Of a DNA stretch of 48,118 bases, positions 1 to 48,118 are shown piece after piece. Origin of the DNA: a virus; the IMG/VR virus record IMGVR_UViG_3300020156_000038, positions 1 through 48,118 of that record. One strand, written 5' to 3'. The notes beneath the pieces are model-generated. The model saw nothing but the letters and a program-made list of their open reading frames with translations, was not told the DNA's origin and did not search any database. The position numbers and the translations under genes were made by a program. Every line of letters begins with the position of its first letter. Position 1 is the first letter of the stretch.

Positions 1-127
1 CATCCTTTCCCTCGCGCAGAACAACATGCCGTCTGCGCAATCGGCCAGCTTCAGCACCACCTCTTCACGCGGTGTAACTTCGATGCTGAAGTCCACCGTG
101 TTAAGCAGCTGCTCCTCAACCTCGCCG
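1..127. repeat. 127-bp terminal direct repeat, left copy
   Basis: These 127 bases are identical to 47992-48118. The repeat lies inside one reading frame that continues seamlessly across the join (the HD-domain gene). Together with a length equal to a common assembler k-mer, this points to the overlap left when a circular assembly graph is linearised, not to a biological terminal repeat. The unique circle would be 47,991 bp. Confidence 0.93.
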
Positions 128-456
128 AACTCCTTGCGGATGCCGAGCGCCCGCTTAGCAGGGCTGGGCACGTCGCCGGTGTATTGCTCGGCCAGGTCGT
201 GCGTCAGTGCCTTCATCAGCAGCGCCGCTGACGGCTTGCCATCCTCCAGCAGCATGCAGAACATCGCGACGCCGTGGCTGTGCTGACCCACCGTGTTCTC
301 CGTCACCGTGGGGATGGTGTGGAACCGTTTGACTGCGCTGCCGTCGAACAGCGTGCGCACCTGCGCTAATGCCTTGCTGCCCGGATTGAAGAACGCTTTG
401 TCACCGTGATGAAAGTTGGCGTCGTAGTGGCCCAGGAACGGTGAGATGTCAACCAC
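1..456 (-). CDS. HD-domain 5'-deoxynucleotidase (YfbR-like), N-terminal part; continues at 47991
   Basis: This is the N-terminal 152 codons of a protein split by linearisation; joining to 47991-47833 gives 204 aa, close to the roughly 199 aa of E. coli YfbR. GTG at 456 is chosen because AAGGAG stands 7-8 nt upstream and it overlaps the stop of the upstream thymidylate-synthase-like gene by 8 nt. HD-phosphohydrolase metal residues are visible: H59 and H61 (GQHSHG) and H86-D87 in THDLAEQ, followed by YTGDVPSPAK, a sequence typical of YfbR-type nucleotidases. Known members dephosphorylate deoxynucleoside 5'-monophosphates. In this operon it may remove dTMP or another dNMP to favour a modified nucleotide; that role is inferred. 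Confidence 0.85.
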   Translation of the reverse strand, partial: MVDISPFLGHYDANFHHGDKAFFNPGSKALAQVRTLFDGSAVKRFHTIPTVTENTVGQHSHGVAMFCMLLEDGKPSAALLMKALTHDLAEQYTGDVPSPAKRALGIRKEFGEVEEQLLNTVDFSIEVTPREEVVLKLADCADGMLFCARERM

Positions 457-1522
457 GGGTCTGCTCCTTTGCTGCGCGCTTGGCACTGCGCCGTTCGAGC
501 CACTCTTTGCAGGCGATGCGCCAGTCCCACGCGGCGATCTTGAGCACATGCTCGTCGGCTTCGTCGTACTGCTTGTTCCGCCACGCGTCATGCGCCAGAT
601 ACATGGGCACGGCCACTTCGCCGATGAACCTGCTGTTCCACTTGGTGTACTCGTTGTGGATGCCGTTGCGGGTCAGCAGGTAATGCAGGTCTTGGTGCCA
701 TGCATCCAGTGAGCAATCCACCAGCGGCATCAAAGCGCAATCCTTGTGAGTGGTGGTATAGCGACAGCTACGCAGCGCGTCATCGGCCAGGATCAGGATG
801 TCCTCTTCCTTGACGATGTCCGTGTACAGATGCAGGTTGTTCGACACCTGGCGGTACACGCCAACCGGCACGCCGATCTTCGCCGCCATGTACTCCTGCA
901 GGATGCTGAAGTGCACGGCATTCGCCCCGTAGCAGCCCCACAGCATGTCGTTGCTGCGGTTGCACACGGTCATATTAAGCACGCCGCCACGGCAGTCGAA
1001 GTACGCATGCGTGTTGCACGGCACGTCCTTACCGCCAGCCTGCGCCACCCAAAGGTCGGAATGACTTGTATCGGCCATGTACTCAACGCCATCCAAGTTA
1101 GGCGCTGCGTTCCACATGGCGAGAACAGCACGGCGGCTATTTGGATTGTTGCGCAAATCTTTTGCGATAACTTCCAACTGGTCGTAGCCGAAGAAGTTTC
1201 GCCAGCGCCAGCCGTAGGCACCCCAGATGCTTTTTCCATCGTCGCTGTATTCACGGAAACGCTTGTTGAACAACATGGGGAACAGCAAATCGTTGCGCCC
1301 GCCGAGCATCCACAGGCTTTCCATCAGATGGAAGAACGGGTTGGCGTCACGCAGCGGCGAGAACAGCACCCGGCGCTGCGGCTGGTAGTACACCGTTGTG
1401 ACCGGCGCCGGCATCACCAGCACCGTACCGTTGCGGCTGTCCTCACGGATGCCTACCTGTTGCACCTTGTACAAGGCTTCGTTCAACGCTTCCGATACGC
1501 TACTTGCATGTACGATGTCCAC
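449..1522 (-). CDS. Thymidylate synthase family protein (candidate dUMP hydroxymethylase)
   Basis: The 357-aa product keeps the TS catalytic framework: paired arginines 130-131, nucleophile C169 in DVPCNTH, phosphate-binding R189-S190 and D192 in NRSND, an Asn (N201 in GANAVHF) where dUMP-specific enzymes have Asn and dCMP hydroxymethylases Asp, and H231/Y233 in NNLHLY. The substrate is therefore probably dUMP. The family includes both methylating TS and phage enzymes adding a hydroxymethyl group; sequence alone does not decide, but the neighbouring hmdU-type gene favours hydroxymethylation. GTG at 1522 is preferred to the longer ORF because GAGGAG lies just upstream and the preceding gene stops 1 nt before it. 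It overlaps the HD gene by 8 nt, indicating translational coupling. Confidence 0.85.
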   Translation of the reverse strand: MDIVHASSVSEALNEALYKVQQVGIREDSRNGTVLVMPAPVTTVYYQPQRRVLFSPLRDANPFFHLMESLWMLGGRNDLLFPMLFNKRFREYSDDGKSIWGAYGWRWRNFFGYDQLEVIAKDLRNNPNSRRAVLAMWNAAPNLDGVEYMADTSHSDLWVAQAGGKDVPCNTHAYFDCRGGVLNMTVCNRSNDMLWGCYGANAVHFSILQEYMAAKIGVPVGVYRQVSNNLHLYTDIVKEEDILILADDALRSCRYTTTHKDCALMPLVDCSLDAWHQDLHYLLTRNGIHNEYTKWNSRFIGEVAVPMYLAHDAWRNKQYDEADEHVLKIAAWDWRIACKEWLERRSAKRAAKEQTRG

Positions 1523-1523
1523 T

Positions 1524-2372
1524 TTACTCTCCTCGACCAGGATAACGGGAGCGCGGCCGACCCTGGCCCATCCGTACGCGCTCGTACTTGTCAAACTCAC
1601 ACAGACAGTTCTGTAGGTCCTGTGCGTCAATCGGTTGTAGGTTGTGGTTACGTTCGCGCTGTATGAACTTGGTCACCGCGTCGAACAGCATGTCGAAGTC
1701 ACGCTGCCAGATGGCAGGGTTCATCCGTTGCTTGTATGGCCTGTCGAACACGCGGTTCAGTCCGCGCCTGCTGCCTTCTCCCATTGCTGCCCATGTCCAC
1801 CAGTCGGGCGCTTGCTTCAGGTGGCCGTAGTGCTTCGTATCTGCCACTACCTGCGCCGCCAGGAAGTCACCGATGCCGTCTTGCGCCGCCAGCCTTGCGT
1901 GAAACGACGCCAGCGTATCACCTTCCTTCGGTGCGATATGCTTGCGTGCGTCCCATATGGGCTGCAGTACCCGTTCAGCGTAGTACTTCTCCTTCGGTAT
2001 GGCATTGCGGTGTGTCGTGATCATGTAGGCACCAGTCCACACCTTCTGGCCCAACGCGCTGCGCTTGCTGAGCACCCGCTGAAACCGTTTGGCGTCGTAC
2101 GGTATGGGTATACTCATGTCGTTCAGCGTTTCGTGCCAATTCACCACACGCGCCACCAGCATGGCGAAGAACAGGTAGCCGTGGTCACCGAGCACGTCGC
2201 GCCAGTTCTCCTTGATCCAAATGGTCTCCGTATCTAGTTCGCGGTACACGTTGCAGAAGCGGTACTCCTGCAGAATGGCGTCCTGTGTCCACGGCTTCGC
2301 CATATCCATCTGCCGCCGCTGGTAAATGCGGTGTCGCTCACACATGAACTTCAGCAGCTCATCGATGCGCAT
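1524..2372 (-). CDS. HhH-glycosylase-fold helical protein of the 5-hmdU DNA kinase / aGPT-pyrophosphorylase family
   Basis: 282 aa. I recognise the motif series of this phage DNA-hypermodification family: KPWTxDxIL (26-34), RFCNVYRELDTET (38-50), a helix-hairpin-helix-like GIGDFLAAQVVADTKH (166-181) and GEGSRRGLNR (198-207). Relatives occur in phages that convert 5-hydroxymethyl-dU in DNA to more complex thymines, either as the helical domain of the hmdU DNA kinase or as alpha-glutamyl/putrescinyl-thymine pyrophosphorylase. No P-loop is visible here, so it would act as a stand-alone transferase/pyrophosphorylase or work with a separate kinase. ATG 2372 has GGAG 7 nt upstream and overlaps the glycosyltransferase stop by 14 nt. 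Family placement is from memory of motifs, not a search. Confidence 0.68.
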   Translation of the reverse strand: MRIDELLKFMCERHRIYQRRQMDMAKPWTQDAILQEYRFCNVYRELDTETIWIKENWRDVLGDHGYLFFAMLVARVVNWHETLNDMSIPIPYDAKRFQRVLSKRSALGQKVWTGAYMITTHRNAIPKEKYYAERVLQPIWDARKHIAPKEGDTLASFHARLAAQDGIGDFLAAQVVADTKHYGHLKQAPDWWTWAAMGEGSRRGLNRVFDRPYKQRMNPAIWQRDFDMLFDAVTKFIQRERNHNLQPIDAQDLQNCLCEFDKYERVRMGQGRPRSRYPGRGE

Positions 2373-3174
2373 TCTTGTACTCCATACCAGCGAGAATAGC
2401 ACGACGCCAGTTGACCTTGACATCCGTGCGTGTGCCCCACATGGTGCCATTACCCTTCTGTTGCTTGGTGACCACCGTAACGCAGTCCGGGTGCAGCTTG
2501 GCAAGCTGCTCAGCGGCTTTGCGCTGTACGTCGTCGGTGCGGTAGGTGCTACACCCGCCTTCTTCGTTACTGCCACGCTGCTCCTGAACCAGCCGATTCA
2601 GTTGGAAGCATTCGTGTCCGCGCTTGAGCAGTTGCAGCTGGACGTCGAAGTCCTCCATGACAGGTACACGGAACTTGATGCCTTCACGCTTCAGCAGGTC
2701 GCGGTCGTAGGCCAGCGCCCGCAGCTGTCGCGTGTTGAAGTCGAGCGCCGCGCGGTTGTTGGCGAACAGACGATGCCCGATGCTGCCGTGGCCGTAGCGC
2801 CGCAGCAGCTTGACAACCTCGGCCAGCCCTGCCGCGCGCTGTGCCTCAGTGGCCTTGCGGTAGCGCACGCTGGGCTCACCATCCAAACCCTCAGCTTCGT
2901 CGCGCCAGGACCACGAGCTCAGGTCGTCGTCTAGCATCAGAATGTGCGGGTCGTCGCTGCATTCCAGTATAGACTGACGCGTTGCAGCGATGCCCTTGGC
3001 AGAACATCCTCGAACACGCGCGCCCAACAGCGCTGGATGCCCTTCAAACGACTTCACCTCCTTTACTGGACACACGACGGTGACGCCATATTTCTTGACC
3101 AGCTTGGGGCCAAGTTCACGGATGGTGAACTGCATTTCAGGGCCACGGTTCAGGGTTGGGATGAAGATACGCAT
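2359..3174 (-). CDS. GT-A fold glycosyltransferase, TAGT-like
   Basis: 271 aa. The N-terminus MRIFIPTLNR, then GIAATRQSI (61-69) and an LDDDL metal/nucleotide-sugar motif (81-85) are the signature of GT-A glycosyltransferases. The arrangement resembles TAGT enzymes (TET/JBP-associated glycosyltransferases), which attach sugars to hydroxymethylated pyrimidines. MEDFD (173-177) could supply the acidic base of the acceptor site. It is the gene directly upstream of the hmdU-family protein and TS-like enzyme, so a role in glycosylating a modified thymine in phage DNA is the simplest inference; the sugar donor is unknown. The ATG overlaps the stop of the preceding small gene (TAATG). Confidence 0.7.
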   Translation of the reverse strand: MRIFIPTLNRGPEMQFTIRELGPKLVKKYGVTVVCPVKEVKSFEGHPALLGARVRGCSAKGIAATRQSILECSDDPHILMLDDDLSSWSWRDEAEGLDGEPSVRYRKATEAQRAAGLAEVVKLLRRYGHGSIGHRLFANNRAALDFNTRQLRALAYDRDLLKREGIKFRVPVMEDFDVQLQLLKRGHECFQLNRLVQEQRGSNEEGGCSTYRTDDVQRKAAEQLAKLHPDCVTVVTKQQKGNGTMWGTRTDVKVNWRRAILAGMEYKNAHR

Positions 3175-3374
3175 TAGGTGGTCTCCAGTTCGCGCGCCGC
3201 TTTAACGGCTTCGAGTCGATTGAATTGGTTGACGAGGTAGCGGCCGAACTTGACCGGGTCTTCCACGCCGTCCTTATACAGCTTCATGACGAACTGGTCG
3301 CCACGTTTTATGAACACCTCGCCCTTACGGCGAGGCTTATTGCTCATCGTCATGGACCACGTGTGTTCGGCCAT
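3174..3374 (-). CDS. Small basic protein, 66 aa, unknown
   Basis: ATG 3374 has a near-perfect AGGAGG 6 nt upstream, which decides this start over the longer frame. The product begins MAEHTWSMTM, is rich in Lys/Arg (NKPRRKGEVFIKRGD) and has no cysteine or membrane segment. It starts 1 nt after the stop of the CxxC gene, and its own stop overlaps the glycosyltransferase start. I recognise no family. Confidence 0.75.
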   Translation of the reverse strand: MAEHTWSMTMSNKPRRKGEVFIKRGDQFVMKLYKDGVEDPVKFGRYLVNQFNRLEAVKAARELETT

Positions 3375-3375
3375 G

Positions 3376-3669
3376 TCAGCCTCCTGCCATGCGGAGCCAG
3401 TGTTCACTGGCGTCGTCCGCATCACGGTACACGTATCGCTCACCATTGCGACCGCTGCGCATGATGACCGGACCGTCTTGCTCCTCGTAGTCCTCGCGCA
3501 CCTTGCCAGTGCCGCTGCAGACTTCACACGGTTGATCGTACTTGCCTTCGAGATACGCTTCGAAGTCTTCCTCATCCCAGTCCTCTTGGTTCACGATGCC
3601 GAGGTGGGCGCTGCTGTGTTCTTCGCCCTTACATAACGGGCAGATGATCCACGGTGCCTTGCTGCTCAT
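3376..3669 (-). CDS. Small zinc-finger-like protein, 97 aa
   Basis: Two CxxC pairs, CPLC (10-13) and CEVCSGTGK (about 48-56), could bind one zinc ion; the second pair resembles the DnaJ-type CxxCxGxG repeat. The acidic stretch between them (EDWDEEDFEAYLEGKYD) is a common feature of small phage zinc-ribbon proteins of unknown role. AAGGAG lies 8 nt before ATG 3669 and overlaps the sulfotransferase-like stop codon, so the genes are co-translated. Confidence 0.75.
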   Translation of the reverse strand: MSSKAPWIICPLCKGEEHSSAHLGIVNQEDWDEEDFEAYLEGKYDQPCEVCSGTGKVREDYEEQDGPVIMRSGRNGERYVYRDADDASEHWLRMAGG

Positions 3670-3673
3670 GGTC

Positions 3674-4396
3674 CTACTCCTTGTATCCGTAACGCTTGGC
3701 GAGTGACTTGATCTGCTTCCCCAGGTCGGTGTCGATGTCGATCATCTCGGCGAAGGTAAGCGGCGTGTACGCACGGAAGCCGCCTGTCTTGTTCATCGGC
3801 TTCAGGTGCGCGGGGTACGGCTCGTTCTTGCCCAGCATCTCCATGATGGCTGGCCACGCCTGCTGGTAGCGCTCCAGGTTGAACGTGAGGTCGGCCTGTT
3901 TTTCGCTCAGCTGGTTATGCGCCAGCCAGTAGTGCATCGCGCGCAGCATGGCGTTCTTGCGGATGTCCGGAATCAGCCCGTTGTCCACGTAGAACTGCCA
4001 CGTCACCGAGCCGAATATCTTGGTCATCGATGGGATGGCCTTGCGCGGGTCGCGGGTGATGTGCAGCGTGTGCTTGAAGTCGAAGTCGCTGCGGCGTTCG
4101 CCCACATGCTTCTTCAGCTGGCTTTCCTGCCACGGAGCCATCGGGTACCAGTCGCTGTCCACCACGAAGTAGTGGCTGACCGTGCCGTCGTCTCCGACCT
4201 TCTCATGCAGCACGTTGATGCCAACGGTGCGCAACGCCTTGGCGGTGAACATGGTGCCGCTGCGCCCAGAGCCGAGCACGAGCAGCTTCTTCGGGATGCG
4301 CACGCCCTTGCTCTTGCGAACGCCCCACTTCTCCTCGCTGCTGCGCAGGTGAGGCTCCTTCTCGAATACGATGATGTCGCGGCCGTTGACCTTCAT
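3674..4396 (-). CDS. Sulfotransferase-superfamily P-loop protein
   Basis: 240 aa. GSGRSGT (42-48) matches the 5'-phosphosulfate-binding loop of PAPS-dependent sulfotransferases, and HITRDPRKAIPSM (112-124) matches the 3'-phosphate-binding strand/helix with its conserved Arg and Ser. The remaining length is enough for one catalytic domain; there is no signal peptide or membrane anchor, so it acts in the cytoplasm. Known members transfer sulfate from PAPS to hydroxyl or amino groups. It is the first gene after a terminator and lies upstream of the glycosyltransferase, hmdU-family and TS-like genes in an overlapping operon, so a sugar or base substituent in phage DNA is a plausible acceptor. That is inference; some superfamily members have other activities. 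AGAGGA lies 11 nt before the ATG. Confidence 0.72.
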   Translation of the reverse strand: MKVNGRDIIVFEKEPHLRSSEEKWGVRKSKGVRIPKKLLVLGSGRSGTMFTAKALRTVGINVLHEKVGDDGTVSHYFVVDSDWYPMAPWQESQLKKHVGERRSDFDFKHTLHITRDPRKAIPSMTKIFGSVTWQFYVDNGLIPDIRKNAMLRAMHYWLAHNQLSEKQADLTFNLERYQQAWPAIMEMLGKNEPYPAHLKPMNKTGGFRAYTPLTFAEMIDIDTDLGKQIKSLAKRYGYKE

Positions 4397-4482: not shown

Positions 4483-5652
4483 TCAGTTGACTTCGATGTA
4501 GCCGCGCTCGATGTTCCAGTGCAGGTTGTGGCTGCCGCCACCGTTGGCGAAGAACTCGCCGACCGTCTTGGACTTCTTCAGCAGTTCGAACGTGTCGTAG
4601 CTGGCGGTGCCTTCGCGCTTCGGGTTGTCCTTGACGAGCACCTTGATCTTCTGGCTCTCGCTGAACGCGCCCTTGCGGCCACGGCGACCTTCGCCCTGGT
4701 CCTTCTTGCCTGCGGCCTTCTTGGCCGGTGCCTTCTTGGCTGCTGCGCCCTTGCCAGTGCCCTTGGTCAGCTTGGTCGGCTTGGCCGCGCCGTTGGCCTT
4801 GCCTGCGGTCTTCTTGGCCGGTGCCTTCTTGGCTGCGGGCTTCTTCTTGGCCTTCGGCTCGGCCTTGGCGGTCTTCTTGGCAGTGGTCTTCTTGGCGGTG
4901 TCGTTGCTCACGTTCTTCTCCTTCGATGCCTTTGCGGCGGGTTTGGTCTTGCTGGTGGTTGCCTCCTTGGTGGCAGGCTTCTTGGTGGCTGCGGCCTTCT
5001 TGGCTGCGGGCTTGCTCGCCGGCTTCTTCTGCGCGGCGTTCGGTGCGGCTTCCTGCTCGTTGGTCGCGGTGTCCTTGTTGTCTTGCTCGGTCATGCGCTT
5101 GCTCTCCAGTCGTGCGGCCTTCTTTTCGGCCTTGTTCTTCAGGGTGTTGTGGTTACGGACCGCACGCTTGATGGCATCGCGGTTCGATTCAGTAGGGGAC
5201 TCCTTCTTATCCCAGGTCCCCTTGCTGGGCTTCTTGCTGCTGCCAGCAATCAACTCGGTGGTGGTGCACGGTGCAACCGCAGGGCACGGACCAGTCTTCG
5301 GTAAGCCAGCTTTATGCGTGGCAATCACGTTGCGTTCGGCCAATGTCATACGTGCTGCATCGTTCATTGCGATCCCCTTGTCGGTGCTGAGCTTGTGTAG
5401 CGCCTTGGCGGCGCGGTCGGTCATGCGGATTGCTGCGGTCAGTGGCGTGGTGTAGTGCTCGATAGCCCGCCCCACCGGGTAAGTCTCGAGCTCCTTGTAC
5501 TCGCTGTGGAATTCGCGCGCTGCCATCTTGTGGATGTCGGTGGTCAGCTCGCCGTTACCTTCCTCAGTGCTGATATAGTGCACCACGCCCTTGTCTTCGT
5601 TCAGCAGGATCGCGCACCTGCTGTTTCGACTGCGGTATACAGCAACGTCCAT
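4483..5652 (-). CDS. Histone H1-like, lysine/alanine-rich DNA-binding protein
   Basis: 389 aa in three parts. Residues 1 to about 185 are an unrecognised globular region. About 190-310 is a low-complexity tail dominated by K, A, P and T with repeated AKKAPAKK units, very like bacterial histone-H1 tails. The C-terminal 65 residues (from GRRGRKGAFSE) form a compact domain containing KVLVKDNPKR and KTVGEFFANGG, a C-terminal module I have seen on other phage/proteobacterial H1-like proteins. An internal in-frame ATG (MTEQDN, near 5094) has GGAG 9 nt upstream and could give a shorter tail-plus-C-domain product. It probably binds or condenses DNA. ATG 5652 has GGAG 10 nt upstream. Confidence 0.75.
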   Translation of the reverse strand: MDVAVYRSRNSRCAILLNEDKGVVHYISTEEGNGELTTDIHKMAAREFHSEYKELETYPVGRAIEHYTTPLTAAIRMTDRAAKALHKLSTDKGIAMNDAARMTLAERNVIATHKAGLPKTGPCPAVAPCTTTELIAGSSKKPSKGTWDKKESPTESNRDAIKRAVRNHNTLKNKAEKKAARLESKRMTEQDNKDTATNEQEAAPNAAQKKPASKPAAKKAAATKKPATKEATTSKTKPAAKASKEKNVSNDTAKKTTAKKTAKAEPKAKKKPAAKKAPAKKTAGKANGAAKPTKLTKGTGKGAAAKKAPAKKAAGKKDQGEGRRGRKGAFSESQKIKVLVKDNPKREGTASYDTFELLKKSKTVGEFFANGGGSHNLHWNIERGYIEVN

Positions 5653-16517: not shown

Positions 16518-16691
16518 CTAGTCCTTGGGTACGTTGGACTTGATGGCGATGCTGAGTAGCGCCGCAGCCATCCACGTCCAGATGTTGTAAGCGATGCCCA
16601 ACCCGAACAGCGTGTTGAGCGCCCAGATCAGCAGCAGCGGGCCGATGATGACCAGCGCCACTACTACCAGAAGCAACAGCAGTATCTTCAT
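16518..16691 (-). CDS. Small membrane protein, 57 aa
   Basis: ATG 16691 overlaps the kinase/nucleotidyltransferase stop (ATGA), with GGGAG 9 nt upstream. The peptide starts MKILLLLLVVVALVIIG, has a second hydrophobic stretch (LLIWALNTLFGLGIAY) and ends SNVPKD. The start is a possible uncleaved signal anchor. Too short for most ORF callers, but well placed between co-oriented genes. Function unknown. Confidence 0.7.
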   Translation of the reverse strand: MKILLLLLVVVALVIIGPLLLIWALNTLFGLGIAYNIWTWMAAALLSIAIKSNVPKD

Positions 16692-17494
16692 TGTACGTGC
16701 TCCCTCTCGAACTTGATGCCACGCTCCTTGCGGATATCCGTGGCGCTGATAGCGTGGATGTCAGCGCCCAGGTCAATCTGTTCGACGTTGTAGCCCACGT
16801 CCCGGCCGTAGTACACACCGGCGATGTTGGGCACGGACATCACAGCGAACCGGCCCTTGTACTTGGGTTCAGCGTCCAGCACCTCGCGGATGCCTTCGAA
16901 CACCTGCTGGATGCCGATGGGGTTGTCGCTACTGCACGGCACCGTGCGCACCAGAATGGTGGCAAAGCCGTGACGCTCGATGATCTGGTCGAGCAGCGCC
17001 TTATGTCCGCCGTGGAACGGCTGGAACCTGCCGATCATTACGCCCTGCGGAATGCACTGGCGGATGATCGACGCCATCTCGTAGACCTCTTCCGGTCCGT
17101 ACTCGAAGCCGGTGACTGTGAAGTCCGGGTTGGCAGGCTTGATGAACACGCGGTTGGTGTCTTCGAACCGGCCTTCCTCGATGGTGTTCATGAGGACGAT
17201 CAGGTGCGGTGCGAAAGCAGCGCGCGTTTCCGGCGTCGGGCATACGAAGTCCGCGATGACCAGCCCGCCCGCTTGATTGGCCTTGTCCTTCATGCGCTGC
17301 GCCTGCCGTACACGACCTTCTTCACTGAAGTCCCAGTCATCGGCTTCCTTGCGCACCTCGTCGGCGTTCAGGTGCGTTGCCGCAGGCAGGAAGTTCAGCA
17401 AGCGCTTGGCGAGCTCGGTCTTACCGGAACCCGGCAGACCCATGATCAGCACGCGGAAGGACTGCTCGGCATTAGCTTTCTTGGAAGCATTCAT
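16688..17494 (-). CDS. APS-kinase-like P-loop kinase fused to HIGH-motif nucleotidyltransferase
   Basis: 268 aa, two domains. Residues 13 to about 120 are an adenylylsulfate-kinase-like P-loop kinase: Walker A GLPGSGKT (19-26), LNADEVR (42-48), ADFVCPTPETR (81-91) and GRFEDTN (108-114). Residues about 150-268 are a nucleotidyltransferase: GRFQPFHGGH (155-164, HxGH) and ISATDIR (249-255), closest in motif style to NMN adenylyltransferases, more remotely to ATP sulfurylase. APS kinase makes PAPS from APS, so a donor role for the sulfotransferase-like protein is tempting; a kinase for a modified nucleotide or an NAD-related role are alternatives. ATG 17494 has GGAG 10 nt upstream and overlaps the small upstream gene by 23 nt. 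Confidence 0.75.
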   Translation of the reverse strand: MNASKKANAEQSFRVLIMGLPGSGKTELAKRLLNFLPAATHLNADEVRKEADDWDFSEEGRVRQAQRMKDKANQAGGLVIADFVCPTPETRAAFAPHLIVLMNTIEEGRFEDTNRVFIKPANPDFTVTGFEYGPEEVYEMASIIRQCIPQGVMIGRFQPFHGGHKALLDQIIERHGFATILVRTVPCSSDNPIGIQQVFEGIREVLDAEPKYKGRFAVMSVPNIAGVYYGRDVGYNVEQIDLGADIHAISATDIRKERGIKFEREHVQ

Positions 17495-17642
17495 TTGGGA
17501 TAAACTCCGATAGGATAGTAGGTACGAACGTTTGCTTGGTGAACTTGCTGACATACCCGCCATAGCTCGGGTCTTTCCACAGAATCCAGAGAATGGCGCG
17601 CGTCAGCGGCTTCGCCACAACCATCTGCCGTTTAACTGCCAT
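17472..17642 (-). CDS. Small protein, 56 aa, unknown
   Basis: ATG 17642 has a strong AAGGAGG ribosome-binding site. The product (MAVKRQMVVAKP, then RAILWILWKDPSYGGYVSKF) ends ECFQES. It overlaps the upstream stop and the next gene's start, matching the close packing of this operon. No family recognised. Confidence 0.7.
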   Translation of the reverse strand: MAVKRQMVVAKPLTRAILWILWKDPSYGGYVSKFTKQTFVPTILSEFIPNECFQES

Positions 17643-47219: not shown

Positions 47220-47840
47220 TCAGCCTTGGTTCACGTAACCCGGCCCCGGCCCGCTGCCGAACAGCGCGGTGTTCCGCATCTGTTCCCAGATTTTGCCAGC
47301 GGCATAACCGGACACGATGCTCTTGACGGATTCCTTCATGTCCGCCGTGGCTTCGTACGGCAGCGGCACCAGACCCAACGCATCCATCTTGTGAGTAAGC
47401 TGCTCCACCACCTCGGCAGCGCCAGGACGCTCATCTTCGCTGGCGTACTGCTCCTTCTCGATGAGCGCGTTCAGCATGTTGCCTGCGCGGTTCAGGTCTT
47501 CGCGACTGGTCCAATCACTCAGCGCCAGGATGATCATGCGCTCAGACACATCGATACCATTCACATCACAGAAGTGAGCCGGCGACTGGTGCGCGCTGAC
47601 GGCCCGGTTCATCGGCGGCAGCACTGTGCCATCGTTGAACGCTTCGATCAGCTTGTCCAGGTAATGGCGAGCTTTCTGCAAGTCCTGCAGCCCGTTCTTC
47701 TTGCGCCAACGCGCGATGTACTTGGTGATGTTACCTTCGAGGTACCGGCCACCGAGGGCCAGCAACACGAAGTCCCAATGCTGGTACGTCGTACCCTTGT
47801 AATGACCGCCACCCACCTGCACTGCATTTGCGTTACTCAC
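47220..47840 (-). CDS. DUF3310-containing protein, 206 aa
   Basis: GTG 47840 is chosen because AAGGAG lies 7-8 nt upstream and it overlaps the HD gene stop by 8 nt. VGGGHYKGTTYQHWDFVLLA and LEGNITKYIARWRKKNGLQDLQKARHYLDKL (residues about 8-60) are the full DUF3310 signature, common in phages beside nucleotide-metabolism genes and possibly a nucleotide-binding module. The remaining 140 residues are helical with no recognised domain. It is the last gene of the TS-like/HD operon. Confidence 0.86.
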   Translation of the reverse strand: MSNANAVQVGGGHYKGTTYQHWDFVLLALGGRYLEGNITKYIARWRKKNGLQDLQKARHYLDKLIEAFNDGTVLPPMNRAVSAHQSPAHFCDVNGIDVSERMIILALSDWTSREDLNRAGNMLNALIEKEQYASEDERPGAAEVVEQLTHKMDALGLVPLPYEATADMKESVKSIVSGYAAGKIWEQMRNTALFGSGPGPGYVNQG

Positions 47841-48118
47841 CTTTATTCTCCTTCCAGATGCGGGCCACGCCCTTGAATACACGCTCGACGCGCTGCTTGA
47901 ACTCGTCGGTCTCCAGTTCTTGCATGATCGCGTTGACATACGTACCGTAGTTCTTGTACGCCGCCTTGATCATCTTGCTCTTGTTGCCGTACATCCTTTC
48001 CCTCGCGCAGAACAACATGCCGTCTGCGCAATCGGCCAGCTTCAGCACCACCTCTTCACGCGGTGTAACTTCGATGCTGAAGTCCACCGTGTTAAGCAGC
48101 TGCTCCTCAACCTCGCCG
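47833..48118 (-). CDS. HD-domain 5'-deoxynucleotidase (YfbR-like), C-terminal part
   Basis: Rightmost copy of the gene whose start is at 456. Positions 47992-48118 repeat 1-127; the real unique C-terminal coding is 47833-47991. This part has VTPREEVVLKLADCADGML, where the D's match the last metal or helix residue of HD nucleotidases, and ends in a basic helix (RVFKGVARIWKENKGE). TAA at 47833 overlaps the DUF3310 start. Confidence 0.85.
   Translation of the reverse strand, partial: GEVEEQLLNTVDFSIEVTPREEVVLKLADCADGMLFCARERMYGNKSKMIKAAYKNYGTYVNAIMQELETDEFKQRVERVFKGVARIWKENKGE
47992..48118. repeat. 127-bp terminal direct repeat, right copy
   Basis: Identical to positions 1-127. It should be removed to obtain the 47,991-bp circle. 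The coding frame of the HD gene is continuous across the join. Confidence 0.93.

Follow-up and report, generated by a model that had tools for sequence, protein, structure and literature searches.

A divergent sulfotransferase-fold protein in a phage thymidine-hypermodification cluster and its possible role in DNA sulfation

Known hypermodifications of hmdU and hmC include glycosylation, amination and carbamoylation (PMC12783734), and earlier work describes a thymidylate-synthase-family enzyme (TS) and aG/PT-PPlase1, encoded near PolA, as a pair for thymidine hypermodification (PMC9599517). Phosphorylation of hmdU widens the set of type II enzymes to which DNA shows full or partial resistance (PMC7653180), and the DNA of Bacillus phage SP-15, with glucose and phosphoglucuronolactone on 5-dihydroxypentyluracil, offers a precedent for the combination of a sugar with extra negative charge (PMC5977210). 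In SP-15, however, the charge comes from phosphate, not from sulfate, and the genes differ from those described here. We know of no report of sulfated DNA bases, and a search of open-access full text, in which the literature on these pathways is partly covered, found no paper on sulfated DNA or on a sulfotransferase in phage DNA modification.

The window, i.e., the whole stretch of 48,118 nucleotides of viral DNA analysed here, is a complete phage genome with an exact 127-bp terminal repeat at its ends and siphovirus-like structural genes (terminase, portal, tape measure, tail and endolysin). On its minus strand, a TS-family gene coding for a probable dUMP hydroxymethylase (449-1522; PF00303, 5.8e-16; phrog_5131, E 8e-114) adjoins HMUDK_hel/aGPT-PPlase1 (1524-2372, start re-assigned; PF18723, E 1.3e-43). 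Further on, and on the same strand, lie a TET-associated glycosyltransferase (TAGT, 2359-3174; PF20691, E 5.7e-17; phrog_842, E 8.6e-36), a 66-aa ORF (3174-3374, its start moved from that of ORF 3174-3575 by a GGAGG site), a zinc-ribbon-like 97-aa protein with two CxxC pairs (3376-3669, GGAG site before the ATG), the sulfotransferase-fold protein that is our main finding (ST, 3674-4396) and a Lys/Ala/Pro-rich protein of 389 aa (4483-5652). The HD 5'-nucleotidase-like ORF (1-591, minus strand; PF12917) spans the contig ends: it runs off the left end and resumes from the right end, and the next gene over the circular join, as in Yuavirus, codes for a DUF3310 protein (47220-47939, minus strand). 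Pfam and PHROGs confirmed the base-modification cluster that the initial annotation had placed around ST, and they identify it as a predicted thymidine-hypermodification cluster of the 5-hydroxymethyluracil type, with a putatively hydroxymethylating TS next to HMUDK_hel. The window TS aligns with the Yuavirus TS and retains the Asn at the dUMP site, a residue that favours dUMP over dCMP.

Yuavirus/M6-like phages have in common with the window the TS hydroxymethylase, HMUDK_hel/aGPT-PPlase1, the HD nucleotidase, DUF3310 and PolA, and the TS-HD-DUF3310 order of Yuavirus is identical. The window, however, lacks the 5hmdU P-loop kinase of these phages and carries TAGT and a sulfotransferase instead. 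No homologue of the M6-type kinase was found in the complete genome, where only two Walker-A proteins, the terminase and an APS-kinase-like gene product, were detected and no further Walker-A ORF exists; its pathway is therefore not of the M6 type. In Brevibacterium phage LuckyBarnes, TS, TAGT and HMUDK_hel adjoin one another as in the window, but no sulfotransferase of the window family was found there. Among HMUDK_hel loci, a GTNGSGKT-type kinase and TAGT never occur together, the apparent exceptions being unrelated Walker-like matches, which suggests that kinase and TAGT are alternative catalytic partners of one DNA-engaging helical protein, HMUDK_hel.

The ST gene is as initially annotated, a minus-strand ORF of 240 aa with an ATG start, and the AGAGGA that precedes this start was rated as a good ribosome site. 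It begins 86 nt after the stop of the upstream 389-aa gene, and the 97-aa CxxC gene begins 4 nt past the ST stop; because of this spacing, we read ST as a member of the operon. In 20 of 80 TAGT loci, the C-terminal ~58-aa domain of the 389-aa protein is encoded on the TAGT strand and no more than 2.5 kb away from TAGT, so genes associated with such clusters lie on either side of ST. Both proposed PAPS signatures are present: the 5'-phosphosulfate-binding (5'-PSB) loop GSGRSGT at residues 42-48 (4253-4273, minus strand), as initially numbered, and the 3'-phosphate-binding (3'-PB) motif RDPRKAIPS, which occupies residues 115-123 (4028-4054, minus strand) rather than 116-123. G42, R45, G47, T48, R115, P117 and S123 are invariant across an alignment of 13 viral sequences, which indicates that the PAPS motifs are conserved and are not chance matches. 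H64-E65 (4202-4207, minus strand) may provide the catalytic base; H64 is invariant both in the clade described below and in the wider family, and E65 is kept except for a Gln in one close relative (L212).

Sequence profiles place the protein outside the named Pfam families. Its best Pfam matches are below threshold (Sulfotransfer_4, E 0.012; Sulfotransfer_3, E 0.15), with a top score of 15.9 bits against a gathering cut-off of 22.8 in the comparison with PF00685, PF13469 and PF17784. PHROGs returned no match for ST, phmmer against PDB sequences gave nothing relevant, and ST is just 20-30% identical to the distant viral family. It was the modelled fold that settled the superfamily. An AlphaFold2 model, for which 20 relatives from viruses and bacteria were aligned (A4), reached a pLDDT of 80.8 and a pTM of 0.77. 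The sole Foldseek match in the PDB with E < 0.001 was the curacin sulfotransferase 4gbm (E 2e-4, probability 1.00), and the best 50 rows of VIA-align were sulfotransferases without exception, including CurM (Z 12.2, 175 residues aligned, rmsd 4.0), OLS (Z 12.1) and TPST (Z 11.5). ST thus shares its predicted fold, 5'-PSB and 3'-PB with the CurM sulfotransferase (4gbm), the Synechococcus OLS sulfotransferase (4gox), TPST1/2 and StaL (Z 12.2-9.7), but it is only 14-18% identical to them, scores under the Pfam cut-offs and sits in a phage DNA-modification cluster. By predicted fold and motifs, ORF 3674-4396 is a member of the PAPS-sulfotransferase superfamily, as had been proposed, and a divergent one because its Pfam scores remain under the cut-off. 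A P-loop kinase as the best structural match, named in the initial annotation as the result that would speak against this assignment, was not obtained. Foldseek does also return shikimate and guanylate kinases with weak E-values, and GSGRSGT is a P-loop variant, so ST could be imagined as a P-loop NTPase/kinase-like protein, or as a catalytically inactive sulfotransferase fold with a structural role in the modification complex. We consider this highly improbable given the uniform VIA-align result, the family-wide conservation of the PAPS motif residues and the missing Walker-A lysine (in a regex scan for GxxxxGK[ST], GSGRSGT was found to have no GK[ST]).

A BFVD search showed that the closest named viral structures are mostly sulfotransferases; the single best is a large 'capsular polysaccharide synthesis protein' from a Megaviridae sample, and several annotated phage sulfotransferases are among them, including those of Synechococcus phage S-SCSM1 and Ralstonia phage phiRSL1. 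Sulfotransferases had initially been called uncommon in lytic phages of Gram-negative bacteria; such genes are not rare among phages in general, but the present clade is: in a collection of 2.9 million viral contigs, only three close relatives were found (L213, the same record as L136; L211, the same record as L168; and L212). They were reached via Phage C48C1 and alignments, while a single-sequence scan of the contigs with the window ST gave no match. In a set of 167 TAGT/HMUDK_hel loci, most of which have no ST, the ST profile detected two strong homologues (phmmer, 163 and 127 bits), closer than any match of the wider ST search, and a regex for further sulfotransferases in the same 167 loci found nothing beyond these two. 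Contig scans seeded with ST sequences alone recovered both known records again, together with L212.

All three relatives lie among base-modification genes, in differing arrangements. In L213/L136, HMUDK_hel, ST, a 315-aa protein and TS form a row, and HD and DUF3310 lie farther out. In L211/L168, a protein resembling the 389-aa protein, including its ~58-aa domain, stands directly before ST; on the same strand, from a distance of about 6 kb onward, are radical SAM/SPASM, a divergent TAGT, HMUDK_hel, TS, HD and DUF3310, with a distance of ~8 kb between ST and HMUDK_hel. In L212, the order is a glutamine-amidotransferase-like gene, an amino acid:DNA transferase (ADDT, E 4e-20), a protein of 451 aa whose C-terminal part is ST, P-loop kinase 3 and a fusion of radical SAM with TAGT, the modification genes being consecutive save for one small ORF. 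The N-terminal ~215 aa of this ST fusion have no homologue among the fetched loci, and among the other window genes tested, only the TAGT domain is common to L212 and the window.

A maximum-likelihood tree unites the four STs (window, L211, L212 and L213) in one clade with support of 100/100. Among the 48 ST loci gathered, base-modification partners are nearby in 4/4 clade loci, of which L213 and L211 were first met in loci chosen by HMUDK_hel and served in part to build the scan patterns, leaving L212 as the unbiased case, and in 0/44 other ST loci, which include some near-duplicates. Whole records of distant STs contain TAGT in 0/19, ADDT in 0/18 and HMUDK_hel in 2/18 cases (distant in sequence). 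The window, L211 and L213 come from related phages (PolA 45-57% identical); since these are three of the four, only about two independent contexts are represented. The link of ST with base modification nevertheless recurs in other phages, and the presence of the relatives in modification clusters makes it possible to suggest that these phages may put sulfate on their DNA. The components are of known kinds, and an ST clade dedicated to DNA-hypermodification clusters appears to be a new combination.

An ST that acts on a host or phage glycan, a protein or a small molecule (e.g., envelope polysaccharide), its location being due to chance or to common early timing, would be in keeping with the other viral ST branches that have no base-modification genes nearby and with the sulfotransferases of many phages and giant viruses. 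In Roseobacter members of the wider family, ST also seems to be joined to a GT25-like domain, which is a typical feature of genes for envelope glycans. Yet every clade member lies in a base-modification cluster, in three arrangements and including one otherwise unrelated phage, and we regard such an acceptor as unlikely. J-domain-ST fusions and cyanophage-like STs were also weighed as pointers to function and rejected: base-modification genes are absent near them, so they say nothing on the acceptor.

Is the acceptor, then, the hydroxymethyl group of hmdU itself or a sugar attached to it? Each of the four clusters contains a glycosyltransferase: TAGT in the window, GT-B in L136, and TAGT-like and TAGT domains in L211 and L212 (E 1.2e-5 and 8e-25, respectively). 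The GT-B assignment is based on the model of the 315-aa protein (model confidence only 62), for which T4 beta-glucosyltransferase ties for the best match (Z 15.8). The joint occurrence of hmdU-type or DNA-aminoacylation enzymes, a glycosyltransferase and ST in 4/4 clusters, together with the apparent GT25-like fusions in Roseobacter (judged by eye only), which point to sugar acceptors, leads us to favour sugar sulfation. The main rival is direct sulfation of the 5-hydroxymethyl group of hmdU in DNA, with 5-sulfooxymethyl-dU as the final base or as an activated leaving-group intermediate like the M6-type phosphorylated base. An M6-type P-loop 5hmdU kinase is missing from the window, HMUDK_hel pairs with either a GTNGSGKT-type kinase or TAGT, like alternative catalytic partners, and in L136 ST directly follows HMUDK_hel, all of which would suit this alternative; it is nonetheless rather unlikely in view of the glycosyltransferases in all four clusters, of L212, which has both a P-loop kinase and ST, and of the many TAGT/HMUDK_hel loci that have neither kinase nor ST.

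Sugar sulfation thus remains the preferred reading: ST is probably a PAPS-dependent tailoring enzyme of a thymidine-hypermodification pathway that sulfates phage DNA, most plausibly on a sugar attached to hmdU. In such a pathway, the TS-family enzyme would produce 5-hydroxymethyl-dUMP, the HD nucleotidase would reduce competing dTMP, and phage PolA would incorporate hmdU into DNA; HMUDK_hel would engage hmdU within the DNA, TAGT would add a sugar, and ST would transfer a sulfo group from host-made PAPS to one of the sugar hydroxyls. The DNA would thereby gain negative charge and bulk in its groove, and this may shield it from restriction enzymes, among them the type IV enzymes that target glucosylated DNA. 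Catalysis, the PAPS source, the order of the steps, the acceptor and the biological effect are the parts of this proposal that we infer. The broader statement that the phage ST clade sulfates hmdU or sugar-hmdU in DNA, a sulfur decoration distinct from backbone phosphorothioation, may well be correct, though we hold it with slightly less assurance; in its boldest version, hmdU-sulfate would take the place of the M6-type phosphorylated base as a leaving-group intermediate. If the statement is correct, DNA gains a further chemistry, sulfation, with a defined candidate enzyme that can be tested with 35S-PAPS; this would point to a means of changing the recognition of phage DNA by restriction enzymes, those directed at glucosylated DNA included, and a DNA sulfotransferase could serve as a labelling tool.

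A possible source of PAPS was also sought within the phages. The window encodes, at 16688-17563 (minus strand), an APS-kinase-like P-loop kinase (PF01583, 26.8 bits, over the cut-off) fused to an NMNAT/cytidylyltransferase-like domain with the motifs GRFQPFHGGH and ISATDIR (phrog_10255 'kinase', E 1e-57). As a dedicated PAPS supply it was rejected: it is not conserved with ST, phrog_10255 is a generic phage kinase family, and the PDB match is weak (2yvu, E 0.0055). No cognate PAPS-making gene conserved beside the clade STs was found.

Several additional observations concern neighbouring or related genes. The unnamed ~58-aa domain (NPKREGTASYDTFELLKKSKTVGEFFANGG...YIEV) of the window protein at 4483-5652 is a possible new component of TAGT modification clusters. 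The T4-beta-glucosyltransferase-like GT-B protein (L136:10621-11565), which has no Pfam or PHROG annotation, has homologues in L134, L139, L140, L155 and L164; adjoining HMUDK_hel, these proteins are apparently an alternative to TAGT. L212:11496-13712, which lies beside ADDT and a P-loop kinase, encodes an unusual hypermodification enzyme in which a radical SAM domain is fused to TAGT. In the wider family, an ST domain is combined with an N-terminal J-domain-like region (FRKxVxKCHPDK) in L011, L013, L014, L015, L027, L034 and L043; these are mostly large viral contigs, one contig being filed as bacterial. Finally, in Thalassovita and Ruegeria (L042 and L044), a GT25-like glycosyltransferase, recognised by eye, is fused to a C-terminal ST of the wider family and is likely a two-step glycan enzyme.
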